From NCBI RefSeq assembly GCF_000010305.1, contig NC_012489.1, positions 3,045,646 through 3,109,645 of the forward strand: a stretch of 64,000 bases of DNA. The letters are read 5' to 3'. The notes below the pieces were generated by a model, which was given only the letters and a program-made list of their open reading frames with translations, was not told the DNA's origin and ran no database searches. Position 1 is the first letter of the stretch. Each line of letters opens with the position of its first letter. Source of the DNA: Gemmatimonas aurantiaca T-27. Its GTDB lineage: Bacteria; Gemmatimonadota; Gemmatimonadetes; Gemmatimonadales; Gemmatimonadaceae. Both the position numbers and the translations under genes were made by a program. This document shows, one piece after another, positions 40,398-46,753 of the stretch.

Positions 40398-40498
40398 AGC
40401 CGGTGTCACAGTCGCGGCCGTCTCGTTTCACGTCCGGACCGTATCCGGTACGTTGAGCGACGAGTGACGGGACGCACGTTGGCGATGTTGTGTCTGTG

Positions 40499-41080
40499 AT
40501 GACTGACGCCGAGTTGGTCGTCCGGACGCGTGCCGGGGATCCGGAAGCGTTCGGAACTCTGGTATCGCGTTATTACAACGCATGCTGGCGGTTCGCCTAC
40601 CACATGCTGGGAGAGCGGGCAGATGCGGAAGACGTGGTCCAGGAGTCATTTCTCCGGGCCTATCTCGCGATTGCGCGGTATGATGAGCGCGATCAATTCC
40701 GTGGCTGGCTTTTCCGAATCCTGACCAATCAGTGCCGCAACGCGCTCACATCCCGCGGCCGTCGCACACGACGGTTCGTGCAGGACGACATCGCTCTGGA
40801 AACCGCGCCGGCCGCTCCGCCGGGGCCGGCTACGGGCGTGGAGGACGCGGCACTCATTCGTGCGCTGGGGCAACTCGATCCGGCGCAGCGGGAAGCATTG
40901 TTGCTCAAGTACGCCGAGGGACTGGAATACTCGGAAATGTCCGCCATGACCGGTGCGGGCGAATCAGCGCTCAAGATGCGCGTGAAACGGGGCAGCGAAC
41001 GGCTCCGCGCACTGCTGGGACGTTCATTCGAAGATCTGCCACCGAACGCATCGCGGTCGCCGGGGGAACCCTCGACGTGA
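40499..41080 (+). CDS. ECF-type RNA polymerase sigma factor
   Basis: A 193-residue sigma-70-family factor. Region 2 spans FGTLVSRYYNACWRFAYHMLGERADAEDVVQESFLRAYLAIARY...FRGWLFRILTNQCRN; a short linker follows; region 4 is ALGQLDPAQREALLLKYAEGLEYSEMSAMTGAGESALKMRVKRGSERLRALL. The ATG at 40499 is chosen; two in-frame GTGs lie just upstream (40490, 40496). It heads a tight four-gene set whose second product is a single-pass membrane protein, the usual place for its anti-sigma factor. No C-terminal extension. Confidence 0.94.
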   Translation: MTDAELVVRTRAGDPEAFGTLVSRYYNACWRFAYHMLGERADAEDVVQESFLRAYLAIARYDERDQFRGWLFRILTNQCRNALTSRGRRTRRFVQDDIALETAPAAPPGPATGVEDAALIRALGQLDPAQREALLLKYAEGLEYSEMSAMTGAGESALKMRVKRGSERLRALLGRSFEDLPPNASRSPGEPST

Positions 41081-41098
41081 TTCATCGTATGGTGCTAC

Positions 41099-41710
41099 AT
41101 GGCTGATCCTATCGAACTCCCCTTCGAGCGTCCGTCGGACGAGGCGGAGCTGATCGCGCGGCTGCGTGGGTCGTATCGTGCACTGCCTGCGCCGTCGGTC
41201 GAACAAATCCAGCGTTGCACCGCTGCGGTGTTCGCGGCAGCGGCGCCTGCGCCGGCGCGCGGTGTCCGCCGTCTGGGGCTGCGTCCTCAGTGGTGGTGGG
41301 GCGCGGCGGCGGCGGCCACGCTGATCGTGACCGTCATGCGGCCGTGGCGTGGCGAAGAAACCCAGCGCCATGCTGACAGCGCCTTTGCAGCCGGCACGGC
41401 GGCGGCACTTCCCGTCGGTTCCACACGGGTCGAAGGTGACGGGGAGATCCGCTTCGAACTCACGCTGCCGAGCACGGCTCGCGCAGTGTCGATCGTCGGG
41501 GATTTCAACGGCTGGGACGAGAAGAAGACGCCAATGGCCAAGCGCGGTGACGAAGGCACCTGGTCGGTGCGGCTACCGCTGAGCCCTGGCCGGTACACGT
41601 ACGCGTTTGTGGTGGACGGTCGCGAGTGGTTGGTGGATGCCCTCGCCCCGCAGGTGCCTGACGCCGGCTTTGGCCCTGCCAATGCGGTGATCGTGGACGG
41701 CGCCGACTGA
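41099..41710 (+). CDS. Single-pass membrane protein with glycogen-binding-type (CBM48/E-set) domain, candidate anti-sigma factor
   Basis: A 203-residue protein with a cytoplasmic segment of about 60 residues, one membrane helix (WWWGAAAAATLIVTVM, about 65-80), and an outer domain (about 115-182) with the E-set/CBM48 signature: VSIVGDFNGWD, TWSVRLPLSPGRYTYAFVVDGREWLVD. CBM48 modules bind alpha-glucans or pack against enzyme domains. The gene sits 18 bases after an ECF sigma gene, so by position the cytoplasmic part could hold the sigma factor; it lacks the classic ZAS His/Cys motif. The anti-sigma role is inference, the domain order is read from sequence. Confidence 0.75.
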   Translation: MADPIELPFERPSDEAELIARLRGSYRALPAPSVEQIQRCTAAVFAAAAPAPARGVRRLGLRPQWWWGAAAAATLIVTVMRPWRGEETQRHADSAFAAGTAAALPVGSTRVEGDGEIRFELTLPSTARAVSIVGDFNGWDEKKTPMAKRGDEGTWSVRLPLSPGRYTYAFVVDGREWLVDALAPQVPDAGFGPANAVIVDGAD

Positions 41711-42453
41711 TGGGTCTTTCCGGCGCCGCCTGGCTGATGCTCGCGCAACTCACCTCTGCCTCTCCGGCGGTCGGTGCGATGCTCGAGCCATCGGCCATGT
41801 TCACTCCCGAGTGGACCGCGTCGGATCTGCAGCACGTCACTCAGTCCCAGCAGCAGGTGCAACAGCAGGTGCAGTTCGATGCGGCGCGTTTCGATTCCGT
41901 CACCGCCAACACGCTGCGCGGGCTGTTCGAAGATGCCGTGGAAATGGGGCTGCCCACCAAGCCGCTCATCAATCGTGCCCTGGAAGGCTCGGCTCGCCGC
42001 ATGACGGGCGAGCGTATCGTGCGGGTGGTGCGGGAGCTCGCGGCCGCGCTGAACGAGGCCAAGGGCGTGCTGGGTCCGGGCTCGACCACGGATGAACTCG
42101 TGGCCGGCGCTGAGGCCCTGCGCGCCGGTTACGATGCGCGAACCGTGGCCGCCGTCCGTGCGGCCCGGACGCCCGGCACGGCCGTGACCGCCTTGATGGT
42201 ACTGACCGACCTGGCCCGCAACGGGGTGCCCACCGGCACGGCCCGTGAAGCGGTCACCAGCATCGCCAAGCTACCGCGCTCCGACGAGGCGCTGCTTGGC
42301 TTGCAGTTGGCGGTCGCCAAGAACGCCCAGCGAGGGCCAGGGATGGCCCTCGACGCGCTCAATCGCTATGTTCGGGGGACGATTCCCGGTTCATCGGGAT
42401 TGTCTGCACCCGCGACGACTGATCGTAAACCGGTCCGGCCTCCAGACTCGTGA
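41710..42453 (+). CDS. Uncharacterised exported helical protein of the sigma cluster
   Basis: A 247-residue protein starting MGLSGAAWLMLAQLTSASPAVGA, a likely signal sequence. The rest is helical, with a Gln-rich run (QHVTQSQQQVQQQVQFD) and repeated helices around residues 80-210 (GLFEDAVEMGLPTKPLINRALEG; LRAGYDARTVAAVRAAR; DLARNGVPTGTAREAVTSIAKL). Start and stop overlap both neighbours: TGATG with the membrane protein and GTGA with the next gene, so it is translationally locked into the operon. No known domain. Confidence 0.65.
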   Translation: MGLSGAAWLMLAQLTSASPAVGAMLEPSAMFTPEWTASDLQHVTQSQQQVQQQVQFDAARFDSVTANTLRGLFEDAVEMGLPTKPLINRALEGSARRMTGERIVRVVRELAAALNEAKGVLGPGSTTDELVAGAEALRAGYDARTVAAVRAARTPGTAVTALMVLTDLARNGVPTGTAREAVTSIAKLPRSDEALLGLQLAVAKNAQRGPGMALDALNRYVRGTIPGSSGLSAPATTDRKPVRPPDS

Positions 42454-43907
42454 CGCCCGCACGCCGCTCTCCCCGCGCGTCGCGCCGCCGCTCTTTGAAG
42501 AGCAGCGGATGGGCCGTGCCGTGCGCGTTTTCTGCGGCATTCGCCAGCGTCGCGCTCTCTGACGTAGCCGATGCGCAGGCCCGGGGCGAAGCACCCATCG
42601 CCCCAGCGGCCACCATCGGCCCCGTCACCGATGCCCCCACGCTCTCGGTGCTGGGCCTGGCGTCCGTCCCCGACGGCAGTGGGAACCCGCTGACGCAACG
42701 CAACGATCTGTGGCTGGGTGCCACCCAGCCTATCGGTCGGCTCGGCCGCTTTCATTTTGCCGCACTCGGCAGCGGCAACTGGCGCTTCCGGGAAACGGCC
42801 AGCAACGACGCACAGTCGCAAGGCATCCTGACGCTGCGCGCCCGCGCGCGCGTAGGCGAGCAGCGTGTCTGGAGTGCGGTGAGTTATGGATATGCTGGCG
42901 GCAACGGCAACCCGGCTTCGGCCATGATGGGTGGCTTGCCCGGCTCGCAGGCGGGCGGTGGGATCGATGGCCGCAGCGCCGACACCACCGTATCCCGCCG
43001 CATCGACGTCGGACAGGTAGGGCGTGCCGAGGCGGGTGTGATGAGCAACTACGGGGGCGTCGAATTTTCCTTCGGCATGTCGCTGGAACGCGCCACCCGG
43101 ATCACCACGCAGACCATCGTGGTCGATGAGCCCAGTTCCATCCCGCTGACCCCCACGGGCGGATCGCGGGTGCTGAGCTCACGGTCACTGCGCACCATGC
43201 AACGGCGCGATCTGGCCACCGGCATGGCTTCCGCAGGCTTCAATACCGGCAGCACCACGTGGTTGGTGTCGGTGTCGGCGCCGGTCGCCACCTGGATCAG
43301 CAGCGATGCACTCGCACCTTCTGCACAACCCATCCCCACCATCGCGTCGCTCGCCGTGGTGCAACCGGTAACGGGTTGGCTTTCGTTGGTGGGCGCAGCG
43401 GCCAGCAATGCGGCGACTCTCGGCCCCAACGCCCTGCGTGATCAGGTGACCCAACAGGGAGGGCGCAACTATCGCAGCTTCTCCCCGGTCGTCGCGCTCG
43501 GTATCCGCATCTCCCGACTCGGCGGCAACGACAACGATGCCACGCCGGGCGGTATCCTCGCGTTCGAAACGCGTACCCTCGGCACCGTCGACTCGATCTC
43601 CATCGAACAAAACTCCCTCGAGCGCGACCACGCCGAAACCGACACACTGCGCGTGGTCCTGCTGATCGATGCCCCACGCGCCGAATCAGTGGAGTTGATG
43701 GGTGACGCGACCTCGTGGACCGTTACGCAGATGCGTCGTCATCCCAGTGGTCGCTGGCGCGCGGAGCTCAAGCTCGCGCCTGGTATGCATCGACTCATCG
43801 TGCGTTCTGATGGCGGCAAGTGGGTCGCGCCACCTGGTCTGCCGGTAGGCAATGATGACTATGGCACCCCGGTCGGGATGGTGCTGATCAAATCGCCAAA
43901 GCATTGA
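42450..43907 (+). CDS. Exported barrel-like protein with C-terminal glycogen-binding-type domain
   Basis: A 485-residue protein from a GTG that overlaps the previous stop as GTGA. A basic leader and signal peptide (WAVPCAFSAAFASVALSDVADAQA) precede a region of alternating amphipathic strands (about 85-390; FHFAALGSGNWRFRE, VWSAVSYGYAGG, VEFSFGMSLERATRI) consistent with an outer-membrane beta-barrel. The C-terminal 90 residues (LRVVLLIDAPRAESVELMGDATSW ... GRWRAELKLAPGMHRLIVRSDGGKWVAPPG) repeat the E-set pattern of the second gene in this operon. Last gene before a perfect terminator hairpin. Confidence 0.7.
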   Translation: MTPARRSPRASRRRSLKSSGWAVPCAFSAAFASVALSDVADAQARGEAPIAPAATIGPVTDAPTLSVLGLASVPDGSGNPLTQRNDLWLGATQPIGRLGRFHFAALGSGNWRFRETASNDAQSQGILTLRARARVGEQRVWSAVSYGYAGGNGNPASAMMGGLPGSQAGGGIDGRSADTTVSRRIDVGQVGRAEAGVMSNYGGVEFSFGMSLERATRITTQTIVVDEPSSIPLTPTGGSRVLSSRSLRTMQRRDLATGMASAGFNTGSTTWLVSVSAPVATWISSDALAPSAQPIPTIASLAVVQPVTGWLSLVGAAASNAATLGPNALRDQVTQQGGRNYRSFSPVVALGIRISRLGGNDNDATPGGILAFETRTLGTVDSISIEQNSLERDHAETDTLRVVLLIDAPRAESVELMGDATSWTVTQMRRHPSGRWRAELKLAPGMHRLIVRSDGGKWVAPPGLPVGNDDYGTPVGMVLIKSPKH

Positions 43908-43917
43908 GAGATAGACG

Positions 43918-43962
43918 AAAAAACGAGCCCCCTACGACCGGTCACTGGTCGTAGGGGGCTCG
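43918..43962. terminator. Perfect 16-bp bidirectional terminator
   Basis: CGAGCCCCCTACGACC and GGTCGTAGGGGGCTCG pair perfectly around a 7-base loop, with an A-run before it that reads TTTTTT on the minus strand. It lies between the end of the sigma operon (43907) and the convergent exported-protein gene (44039), best oriented for the latter but able to stop both. Confidence 0.85.
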
Positions 43963-44038: not shown

Positions 44039-45859
44039 TTACTTGTTGCCGCTATTCACCCGAACAACCTGGGTCGTGCTATCAGTAACACCTGCCCCGC
44101 TCACCATGAGCGTGAGCTGATAGTCTCCCGACGGCACCGACGGGAAATTGAGCGTCAGGCTGCGACCCGCCCCACCATCCGGCCGACCATTGTCGTTGTA
44201 CTTGATCGAGACTGGCGTGAGGGCTTTGGAGAGTCCGATGGAACTGCCAAGACGCTGGAAAAAGCTCGCCCCGAGACGGGTGGCTCGCAGCGACACTTGC
44301 AGTGGCGCCGACGGGCTGGCCTGACGGTACATCTCCCAGTAAATGCCGATCGTGGTACCGCCCTCGATTTCTGTCGACCCATACGCCTGCGTCGCATTGC
44401 GTTCGAGCGTGGGCGTCGGCGACGGGTCGCCTCGCTGCAACAGCAGGTAGTCGGACAAGCGCGTTTCGCGCGGAAGTGGCGAGACCGTGTTGCGCACGCG
44501 GGCGGCACGCTTGCCGACCGGCGCCAGCACTTCGACACTGGCCAACATGGTGCTGGAGAATGGCACCAGCAGCGCGCTGTTGGCCGGCGCACTGTCTCTC
44601 ACCACTTGCAGCGGCGCGCGGCCATCGAAACCGTCGAGGGTGAGCGCAGCCGTGTACGGTGCGCGCCCCATCTCCAGATCCCGCATCAGGCGATAGCCAC
44701 CTGCAAGGATGGTGGTGTCACCACCTCGAAGGAAACGCGCGAACTGGTGTGGCAGCGCACCGTAGCCCGCGGCATACCGGGTCGAATACCGCATGCGTGC
44801 CTTCTTGCGCGTCGGCTCCCAATCCTTGGCCGTCGCCTGTGTCGGACTGCCGATACCGGAAGGCACCGCCATGAAATCGTAGCTGGGCGTCGGCTCGTGA
44901 CCGACCACCTGCGGCGGCCGCGGATCCGCCGCGCCGCCGTTCTGTACCGACCACGCCGTGGGCCAGCCATACCGAAGCTGTGATTCGAGCAGATCGTCAC
45001 CCCACTGCATGTCATAGGGGAGACGGCCCAGTGAATGCACACGCGACATCGTGAAGCGGGAATACCACTCGTTCTGCAGATCGTTGCCCGGCAGCATCCA
45101 CAGCGGCTGTCCCAATCGGAACACCCGCGCATTTTCGGCGCCGCGCCCGCTGCATCCCAACGCCTTGTAGTTGGCGTGCATGGCAGGATCGAGCCAGAGC
45201 GTGAGATCGTCCCAGGCACAACGCTGGGCTTCCGGCATCGCGGCCAGCGCACGGCCGAACGCTGCCGACGCATCGACATGACGATTCAGATTGTGCAGCG
45301 CCAACCCCTGCAGCGCCGCGCACCACCAGTCGGTGCCTCCGCAGGCACGAGCGGCCTCGAGACCAACCTCAGCCTGCCCACCTTCGATGGCATACCGCAC
45401 ACGCATGCCATTCACCCAATCGTCCTTCGGATTCTCTCGTTGGGCTTTCGCCAGCACCTCGAGCAGCGCCTCGCGCTCGAGACGAGCATCAGCGCGTTCG
45501 GCCGGTGGTGGTACATCGCCATTGTTGTTCCAATAGCAGATGCGCCCCAGCGCCACTTCACAGGTGGCATCGGCACCACCGTTGTAGAAGCGGAGCCCCA
45601 ACCGGTGGCTGCGTTCAAACGCATCCTGCTGCGTGCGCGCTTCGTTGCCGGCCGAGGTGATGGTCGACGGCGTTCCACGGAGCGGGTCCGCCGCACGTGC
45701 CGCCGAACGGGCCGAATCGGCCGCCGGGGAGTTGGCCGACGCAGCAGCGCCCGCCTGCGCAAACAACGACGCGGAGGCGGGCGCAAAGAGGAATGCGGCA
45801 AGCGCTGTAACCGTCATCAACCGACGGGGCGCGCACTTCTTCGAATAGTTCTGATTCAC
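44039..45859 (-). CDS. Large uncharacterised exported protein
   Basis: A 606-residue protein with a signal peptide (LMTVTALAAFLFAPASASLFAQ). The N-terminal third is helical and TPR-like (EREALLEVLAKAQRENPKDDWVNGMRVRYAIEGGQAEVGLEAARACGG; LHNLNRHVDASAAFGRALA), with several cysteines that could pair outside the cell. The middle has aromatic motifs (LWMLPGNDLQNEWYSRFTMSR; DDLLESQLRYGWPTAW), and the C-terminal 200 residues are beta-rich. Parts recall GWxTD-type surface proteins, but I cannot assign a family. It is 62 bases downstream... in the same direction as the outer-membrane gene is not upstream of it: that gene (45922-46569) precedes it on this strand and may share its transcript. Confidence 0.7.
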   Translation of the reverse strand: MNQNYSKKCAPRRLMTVTALAAFLFAPASASLFAQAGAAASANSPAADSARSAARAADPLRGTPSTITSAGNEARTQQDAFERSHRLGLRFYNGGADATCEVALGRICYWNNNGDVPPPAERADARLEREALLEVLAKAQRENPKDDWVNGMRVRYAIEGGQAEVGLEAARACGGTDWWCAALQGLALHNLNRHVDASAAFGRALAAMPEAQRCAWDDLTLWLDPAMHANYKALGCSGRGAENARVFRLGQPLWMLPGNDLQNEWYSRFTMSRVHSLGRLPYDMQWGDDLLESQLRYGWPTAWSVQNGGAADPRPPQVVGHEPTPSYDFMAVPSGIGSPTQATAKDWEPTRKKARMRYSTRYAAGYGALPHQFARFLRGGDTTILAGGYRLMRDLEMGRAPYTAALTLDGFDGRAPLQVVRDSAPANSALLVPFSSTMLASVEVLAPVGKRAARVRNTVSPLPRETRLSDYLLLQRGDPSPTPTLERNATQAYGSTEIEGGTTIGIYWEMYRQASPSAPLQVSLRATRLGASFFQRLGSSIGLSKALTPVSIKYNDNGRPDGGAGRSLTLNFPSVPSGDYQLTLMVSGAGVTDSTTQVVRVNSGNK

Positions 45860-45921
45860 GAGTCCAGTCTTCTGAGGGAAGGCGTGAGAGCGAATCTACA
45901 GCCTCAGAAGCACCGACGGGA

Positions 45922-46569
45922 TCAGAACGTGAACTTCAGTCCTGCCGTCAGCGCAAAGTTGTGTGCCACATTGCCGTCGACACGAAAGCCGATGGCATCC
46001 TGTGAGTTGAACTTGCCGATCCAGTCCTTGGCCTGCAGGCGCAGCGCCATGCCGGGCGTGAAGCCCACGTCCACTCCTACACCCAGAGTGTAGGCAACGT
46101 TCGTCGCGCGCACATTCAGGATGCTGGCATCGATGTCGTTGGTCATCCCGCCGATACCAACGGTGGCAAACGGTGCGATTCCTTCGGGACGAGCCGAGAG
46201 ACCACCAAGTTCGAGACCTGCGTCATACATCCACGTCTTGGTCGACCCCACATTGACACCACCGATCAACGGCAACCCTATGCGCAGATCGCCAGAGCTG
46301 TAGGCCAGGCTGCCCACCAGCGAGACGCCGCGGGCGAGGGGAAAGCTGCCCTGCGCACCGATGACCGGACCGTTCGCATTCTTGAGGCTCGTGCCGATCG
46401 GGCCGTCATACCAGTTGCCGGTCAGCACGTAGCCGGCAAAAGGTGTCAGCGAAGCGCTGCCTCCACCGCCCGTCATGGGGGAAGTCTGCTGCGCCGCAAG
46501 CGGCGCCGCCGCGAAGGTGGCCAGGATCGAAGCGACGGAAAAACCGCGGCGAACAAAAGCTGTGTTCAT
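45922..46569 (-). CDS. Outer-membrane beta-barrel protein
   Basis: A 215-residue protein with a signal peptide (RRGFSVASILATFAAAPLAAQQ) and a good GGAGTG site before the ATG at 46569. It has about eight amphipathic strands (SLTPFAGYVLTGNWYDG; VSLVGSLAYSSGDLRIG; IAPFATVGIGGMTNDID; VAYTLGVGVDVGFTPGMALRLQAKDW) and ends NFALTAGLKFTF, with the terminal Phe used for barrel insertion. It fits the small OmpA-like/porin-like barrel group. The larger exported-protein gene follows on the same strand. Confidence 0.8.
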   Translation of the reverse strand: MNTAFVRRGFSVASILATFAAAPLAAQQTSPMTGGGGSASLTPFAGYVLTGNWYDGPIGTSLKNANGPVIGAQGSFPLARGVSLVGSLAYSSGDLRIGLPLIGGVNVGSTKTWMYDAGLELGGLSARPEGIAPFATVGIGGMTNDIDASILNVRATNVAYTLGVGVDVGFTPGMALRLQAKDWIGKFNSQDAIGFRVDGNVAHNFALTAGLKFTF

Positions 46570-46753
46570 ACTCGGACACTCCAGTAGGTGACGATGCGGC
46601 ATGGTGCACGGAGCGGACCACCCGCACGACATCGAAGCAAGTCTCTTTACGGCAACGCGTTACACGATGACAACCAAACGGATCCCGCCAAAGTGTCCTT
46701 CATTGAGGACAGCCTAATGCATCCGCAAGGTGTCAGCGATCACGAGCGGGCAC

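Follow-up and report, generated by a model that had tools for sequence, protein, structure and literature searches.

What kind of signalling does an operon support in which the gene for an extracytoplasmic function (ECF) sigma factor is followed by a membrane protein and an exported protein that both end in a carbohydrate-binding module (CBM) of the CBM48 type? This question is raised by a locus of Gemmatimonas aurantiaca T-27, which lies in the 64,000-nucleotide (nt) stretch analysed here, hereafter the window, of a genome read as a single contig of 4,636,964 bp. Its four open reading frames (ORFs), all on the plus strand, occupy positions 40499-41080, 41099-41710, 41710-42453 and 42450-43907, with a gap of 18 nt between genes 1 and 2 and overlaps of 1 nt between genes 2 and 3 and of 4 nt between genes 3 and 4. 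An initial annotation had described these four nearly overlapping genes as a sigma/anti-sigma/outer-envelope unit whose membrane protein carries no known anti-sigma domain. The gene set is confirmed by the ORFs, by their Pfam domains and by its repetition in the genome and the phylum, and homologues of gene 2 in other lineages point to an anti-sigma domain after all. We consider it likely that the operon, with the full mechanism proposed below, is a self-contained trans-envelope ECF/anti-sigma switch.

A four-gene set repeated across Gemmatimonadota

A search of the T-27 genome for AMPK-type CBMs returned five matches, located in three loci (A, B and C), each of which contains a sigma factor gene, a gene for a transmembrane (TM) protein with CBM48, a gene for a helical protein and a longer exported gene with a C-terminal CBM48. 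Locus A is the operon of the window, locus B (L006) is encoded on the minus strand and runs from the barrel gene through sigma and TM-CBM48 to the helical gene, and locus C (L007) has the same gene order as the window. The three loci behave as separate lineages for each of the four genes. Among 150 Gemmatimonadota genomes drawn across the phylum, the CBM was found in 94 and the helical protein in 96; both were present in 93 genomes, the CBM by itself in 1, the helical protein by itself in 3 and neither in 53 (Fisher p 1e-35, comparing the two lists). Two further copies in the same genome, together with this recurrence across the phylum, place the four-gene set far beyond chance.

The genes are also physically linked. 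A sigma gene, at least two genes for CBM48 proteins and the gene for the helical protein lie within about 11 kb in 64 of the 83 loci read closely, a count that measures linkage and not prevalence because the 80 loci that come from outside this genome were picked from CBM matches. Gene content is kept while gene order varies, the arrangements including sigma-TM-helical-barrel, sigma-TM-barrel-helical, barrel first, TM-barrel-sigma-helical and a divergently oriented barrel gene. When 53 complete operons were compared, each pair drawn from the four genes agreed on its best-matching operon in 28-32 cases, with score correlations of 0.68-0.82. Linkage in relatives had been set beforehand as a test of the annotation, and in this synteny survey it held, with a few exceptions (L041 and L067) that are weighed below. 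The four-gene system is widespread in Gemmatimonadota and sparse outside the phylum.

A sigma factor beside a putative membrane anti-sigma factor

Gene 1 (40499..41080, +) encodes 193 amino acids (aa) and, by its domain content, is an ECF sigma factor, with regions 2 and 4 in a protein of about 190 aa. Sigma70_r2 (PF04542; 69.3 bits) and Sigma70_r4_2 (PF08281; 43.1 bits) both match above the Pfam cut-offs, and no region-3 or region-1 match was listed in the same scan. The predicted fold matches SigW, sigma-E, AlgU and CnrH in structure comparison.

Gene 2 (41099..41710, +; 203 aa), which adjoins the sigma gene here and in most loci, consists of about 60 N-terminal residues predicted to be cytoplasmic, a single hydrophobic or TM segment and a CBM_48 domain in the C-terminal half. 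A profile scan of named genomes detected the pair of sigma and TM-CBM48 genes outside Gemmatimonadota in Candidatus Desantisbacteria (L165), Elusimicrobia (L166), an unassigned bacterium (L183), a metagenome-assembled genome (MAG) labelled Clostridia whose binning is doubtful (L157) and Candidatus Eisenbacteria (L154), the last being possibly a misbinned Gemmatimonadota contig. The motif HxxxCxxC is found in the N-terminus of the gene 2 homologues of L157, L165, L166 and L183. In L157, L165 and L166, a zf-HC2 domain above the Pfam cut-off and a CBM48 are present in one protein, each encoded beside a sigma gene; in L183 the motif is present and the Pfam zf-HC2 match is absent. In the Elusimicrobiota, a survey found a close relative (60% identity) in one genome besides the source (G206), most other matches covering either the CBM48 part alone or the zinc-finger part alone.

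The Gemmatimonadota homologues align to this zinc-finger domain but lack exactly the stretch that holds the zinc ligands. Profile A8, whose set includes the zinc-finger forms, matches RsiW (E 8.5e-8), with MucA, ChrR and RseA next in the list below the threshold. The N-termini of the Gemmatimonadaceae proteins, including that of the window, match the zf-HC2-containing A8 set with an hhalign probability of 96.9 (E 1.5e-10), and two helices are predicted in the gene 2 N-terminus, at residues 15-26 and 34-48, in a model with a low predicted local distance difference test score (pLDDT). On this profile evidence, the Gemmatimonadota form of gene 2 is a zinc-less, shortened derivative of the zinc-finger anti-sigma domain (residues 1-58 in the window, 41099..41272, +), and gene 2 is a membrane anti-sigma factor with a degenerate class I domain, to which the window protein is linked via profile-profile comparison only. 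The absence of a known anti-sigma domain was, therefore, wrongly assumed, because relatives outside the phylum join an intact HxxxCxxC zf-HC2 domain to the same CBM48 and because the profile matches RsiW. The layout that had been proposed, with sigma factor, anti-sigma factor and outer-envelope partner, is upheld by the anti-sigma homology and by the linkage across the phylum.

Paired CBM48 modules, envelope proteins and putative promoters

The CBM48/E-set module of gene 2 (residues 115-190; 41441..41668, +) follows the TM helix and is extracytoplasmic according to the positive-inside pattern. It scores 43.4 bits against CBM_48 (cut-off 22.4), and its model, with pLDDT >90 over most of the module, has TM-scores of 0.82-0.85 to the AMPK-beta glycogen-binding domain. 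A second, CBM48-like module ends gene 4 (residues 408-482; 43671..43895, +). It stays below both cut-offs, with 20.5 bits against AMPK1_CBM (PF16561; cut-off 26.8, E 5e-4) and 16.2 against CBM_48 (cut-off 22.4); a relative (L112) reaches 30.8 against AMPK1_CBM, above the cut-off, and the barrel-type module family aligns at both tryptophan positions. These positions were followed through 73 anti-sigma and 79 barrel modules with the numbering of human AMPK-beta1, whose sequence served as a yardstick. Trp100 is present in every module of both types (73/73 and 79/79) and Trp133 in 58/73 and 72/79; these two are the tryptophans that stack in the glycogen site of AMPK-beta. At the position of Leu146, Phe or Tyr predominates in the two types, and that of Asn150 is Asn in 49 of the 73 anti-sigma modules and mostly Val in the barrel modules. 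Judging from these residues, sugar binding by both CBM48 modules is plausible.

Searching the genome with CBM_48 added a single protein, GlgB-like and 893 aa long, in which there are two CBM48 domains. Several CBM48 modules were seen in proteins longer than 1,000 aa from an unnamed bacterium (L167:4444-7653(+)) and from a Latescibacteria MAG (L177:4063-7143(+)), and in both cases the adjacent, convergent gene encodes a small CBM48 protein.

Gene 3 (41710..42453, +) encodes an exported helical protein of 247 aa that carries the motif GLPxxPLxxKALEGxAK and has no match in Pfam, NCBIfam or PHROGs, and it defines a new family. Gene 4 (42450..43907, +) encodes an exported protein of 485 aa in which a putative outer-membrane barrel (residues ~45-395) precedes the CBM48-like module. 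The fold was modelled for its homologue in L150 (Roseisolibacter), for which 14 beta strands (residues 67-317) and, after them, a CBM48 are predicted, and which comes closest in structure to CymA (Z 20.2) and OmpG, at 7-8% identity. Given that the strand number of this model is even, both ends of the barrel would be periplasmic, and the CBM48 tail would lie in the periplasm. For gene 4 of the window the barrel is unproven; it is suggested by where the gene lies, by the size of its product, by the export signal and by the CBM48 tail that matches. The earlier description of an exported barrel-like protein with a terminal E-set stands as regards the export and, at sub-cut-off scores, the CBM48-like end, with a reservation on the barrel, for which the protein folded was a homologue. 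A single natural frame of 713 aa in L055 (4117-6258, -) fuses the helical and the barrel-CBM48 proteins, which suggests that the two work together.

Upstream of the sigma gene, a putative ECF-type autoregulatory promoter, GTGACG-N16-TGTTG (40464..40490, +), has identical boxes and spacing in 7/7 Gemmatimonas orthologues of operon A, with unconserved flanks. Its -10 box ends 8 nt 5' of the sigma ATG, and the operon A mRNA is probably leaderless, as judged from an inferred transcription start. Across the phylum, 59% of the sigma upstream regions and 1.7% of shuffles score more than 12 bits with the two-box model TGTGAC-N16/17-GGTCTA, a difference that is partly fitted because these upstream regions had also served to train the model; the fixed position of the site near the start codon provides independent support for this promoter.

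In operon B, the boxes read GTGACC-N17-GGTATCA, a sequence with two exact copies in 4.6 Mb, one in front of sigma B and the other in front of a lipoprotein gene; the site of the barrel gene is a close variant. In the loci orthologous to B, L044 and L074, sites precede the sigma gene and the lipoprotein homologue, and in L074 a further one stands before the barrel gene. Considering that the -10 box varies between loci and agrees within a locus, one sigma factor most likely reads all sites of a locus. Since the B promoter type precedes the sigma, barrel and lipoprotein genes and its exact form is confined to the B locus, the switch would drive mainly its own envelope parts.

The lipoprotein-like gene lies 3' of the helical gene, has a separate copy of the sigma promoter (L006:3343-4197(-), L044:4345-5214(-) and L074:5917-6780(+)) and is a probable fifth member of the B-type branch. 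In family f2, divergent operons both carry CGTTACC-N16-NNTCTTT, on both strands. In loci of this type (L077, L078, L083, L087, L088, L156 and L161), a second, weaker sigma-like gene is divergently transcribed with the barrel gene, again from a promoter of this type, so that a single intergenic region serves both sigma genes.

At the other end of operon A, a long hairpin (GAGCCCCCTACGACC...GGTCGTAGGGGGCTC; 43926..43961) with a minus-strand T run can be read between gene 4 and the convergent gene, and is a probable terminator. The convergent neighbours (window 44039-46632(-)) encode an exported protein of 606 aa and an OmpA-like outer-membrane protein. Both also adjoin operon A in L038, and the 606-aa protein does so in L042.

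The proposed switch, its alternatives and known systems

The sigma factor, the anti-sigma homology, the CBM48 modules, the phylum-wide linkage and the promoter conservation form the sequence-based part of the mechanism; to these the proposal adds sigma binding and inhibition, proteolysis, a barrel in gene 4 of the window, a ligand and a contact between CBMs, all inferred. The anti-sigma factor would hold the ECF sigma factor inactive at the membrane until an event at its periplasmic CBM48, most likely the binding of an alpha-glucan-like oligosaccharide or contact with the partner CBM48 of gene 4, leads to its loss. Regulated intramembrane proteolysis would be the probable route of this loss, possibly by way of RseP, which the genome encodes. 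The freed sigma factor would then transcribe its own operon from the leaderless ECF promoter, yielding more helical protein and more of the outer-membrane barrel, whose C-terminal CBM48 would face the anti-sigma CBM48 in the periplasm.

Several observations weigh against this reading. The gene 2 N-terminus of the window has no direct Pfam anti-sigma match, and in an AlphaFold model of a single chain that runs from the sigma factor across the in-frame TGA into the anti-sigma factor, the individual domains fold but the anti-sigma part has a pLDDT of about 50 and gives no contact readout, the underlying alignments being shallow and made up of window and related-locus sequences only. The barrel part of gene 4 of the window has no profile link to the family of the folded homologue, and its beta periodicity is not above that of shuffles in a test that is not discriminating; the orthologue in L042 scores above it. 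Lys126 of the AMPK site is absent from both module types. Genome-wide, the operon A promoter has 7 matches against 3 in the control, with no clear extra target, and a promoter motif was not found for operon C. In addition, L041 (5259-7472, -) and L067 (5245-7217, -) encode the helical and barrel-CBM48 proteins with no sigma or anti-sigma gene in the stretch read.

What the CBM48 modules recognize is the point on which the explanations diverge. They may be protein-interaction E-sets that have lost their sugar binding, the system reporting the assembly state or abundance of its outer-membrane partner; the CBM48 of the barrel, or the helical protein, would bind the anti-sigma CBM48 and control its cleavage, following the logic of RseA and outer-membrane proteins or of FecA/FecR. 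We regard this as a serious possibility, if not one that we would favour, given that nearly every copy has the same module type on both proteins, that the barrel module has lost Asn150 and neither module retains Lys126, and that the promoter-defined targets so far are the envelope partners themselves. The retention of both stacking tryptophans and the aromatic residue at position 146 argue against it, although Trp100 could be structural. More tentatively still, the paired modules could form a sugar-gated trans-periplasmic switch, in which a glucan entering through the barrel binds both, bridging the two or letting one displace the other, and so controls the sigma factor. We hold this version to be rather unlikely; if true, it would be a carbohydrate-sensing mechanism of diderms distinct from SusC/D-FecR and RsgI, ancestral to the phylum and sporadic elsewhere.

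Two further explanations depart from the trans-envelope switch altogether. Gene 2 could be a membrane glucan-binding output protein, the sigma factor being controlled transcriptionally or by another regulator, and the short, poorly conserved N-terminus of the Gemmatimonadaceae proteins, with no direct family match, would agree with such a role. The zinc-finger anti-sigma versions of gene 2 beside the same sigma factor in other phyla, the profile continuity from zinc to zinc-less forms and the adjacency to the sigma gene in most copies make it improbable. That the system senses the intracellular glycogen of the cell itself hardly deserves credence: the homology of CBM48 to AMPK and GlgB, and the one GlgB-like protein with two CBM48 domains, would be in keeping with it, but the positive-inside pattern places the module outside the cytoplasm and gene 4 is exported.

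The operon is a real and apparently undescribed variant of ECF/anti-sigma envelope signalling with an unusual sensor. Neither the operon nor any CBM48 anti-sigma factor is described in the open-access literature searched, which did not extend to the 2021 ECF reclassification paper, and within that scope the initial annotation was right to suggest that the system may be undescribed. Signalling in Gemmatimonadota, a phylum abundant in soil, is almost uncharacterized, and here a widespread, multi-copy system with an unexplored type of sensor links the AMPK/starch CBM48 fold to envelope signalling in a culturable strain. Moreover, a new exported protein family, that of gene 3, nearly always travels with it, and the promoter is defined well enough to be put to the test.

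An association with class I anti-sigma factors is noted for about 79% of the ECFs of Gemmatimonadetes (Wu et al. 2020, PMC7406223), and the words 'carbohydrate' and 'CBM' are absent from the main text of that study. Like RsiW, RseA, MucA and RskA (PMC7406223), gene 2 would combine an ECF partner, a class I domain with or without zinc and one TM helix; it differs in its extracytoplasmic CBM48 sensor, in the shortened domain of the Gemmatimonadaceae and in its conserved envelope partners. FecI/FecR/FecA likewise unites a sigma factor, a membrane anti-sigma factor and an outer-membrane protein, whose extracytoplasmic domains match and are proposed to come together in the periplasm, whereas the operon lacks a FecR domain, a TonB-dependent receptor and an STN domain, none of which had a Pfam match at E up to 1 among its proteins. 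The module shares its fold (TM-score up to 0.85) and both stacking tryptophans with the AMPK-beta glycogen-binding domain and the CBM48 of GlgB, but sits on an envelope anti-sigma factor and is missing Lys126. The likeness to the 14-strand porins CymA and OmpG belongs to the modelled gene 4 homologue in L150, which has 7-8% identity to them and an additional CBM48 predicted to be periplasmic, and a shared fold does not show transport. The closest working analogue is the biomass-sensing, carbohydrate-directed sigma-I/RsgI of Clostridium thermocellum (PMC4711584), which likewise has multiple paralogues per genome and an autoregulated sigma promoter. The operon is not a member of that family, because RsgI-N and sigma-I are absent: RsgI_N was not listed in the Pfam scans of its proteins and its sigma factor is of the ECF type. 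In place of sigma-I, RsgI-N and CBM3, it pairs an ECF sigma factor with a putative class I domain and CBM48 in a diderm host, and adds a conserved exported helical protein and a putative barrel with a second CBM48.

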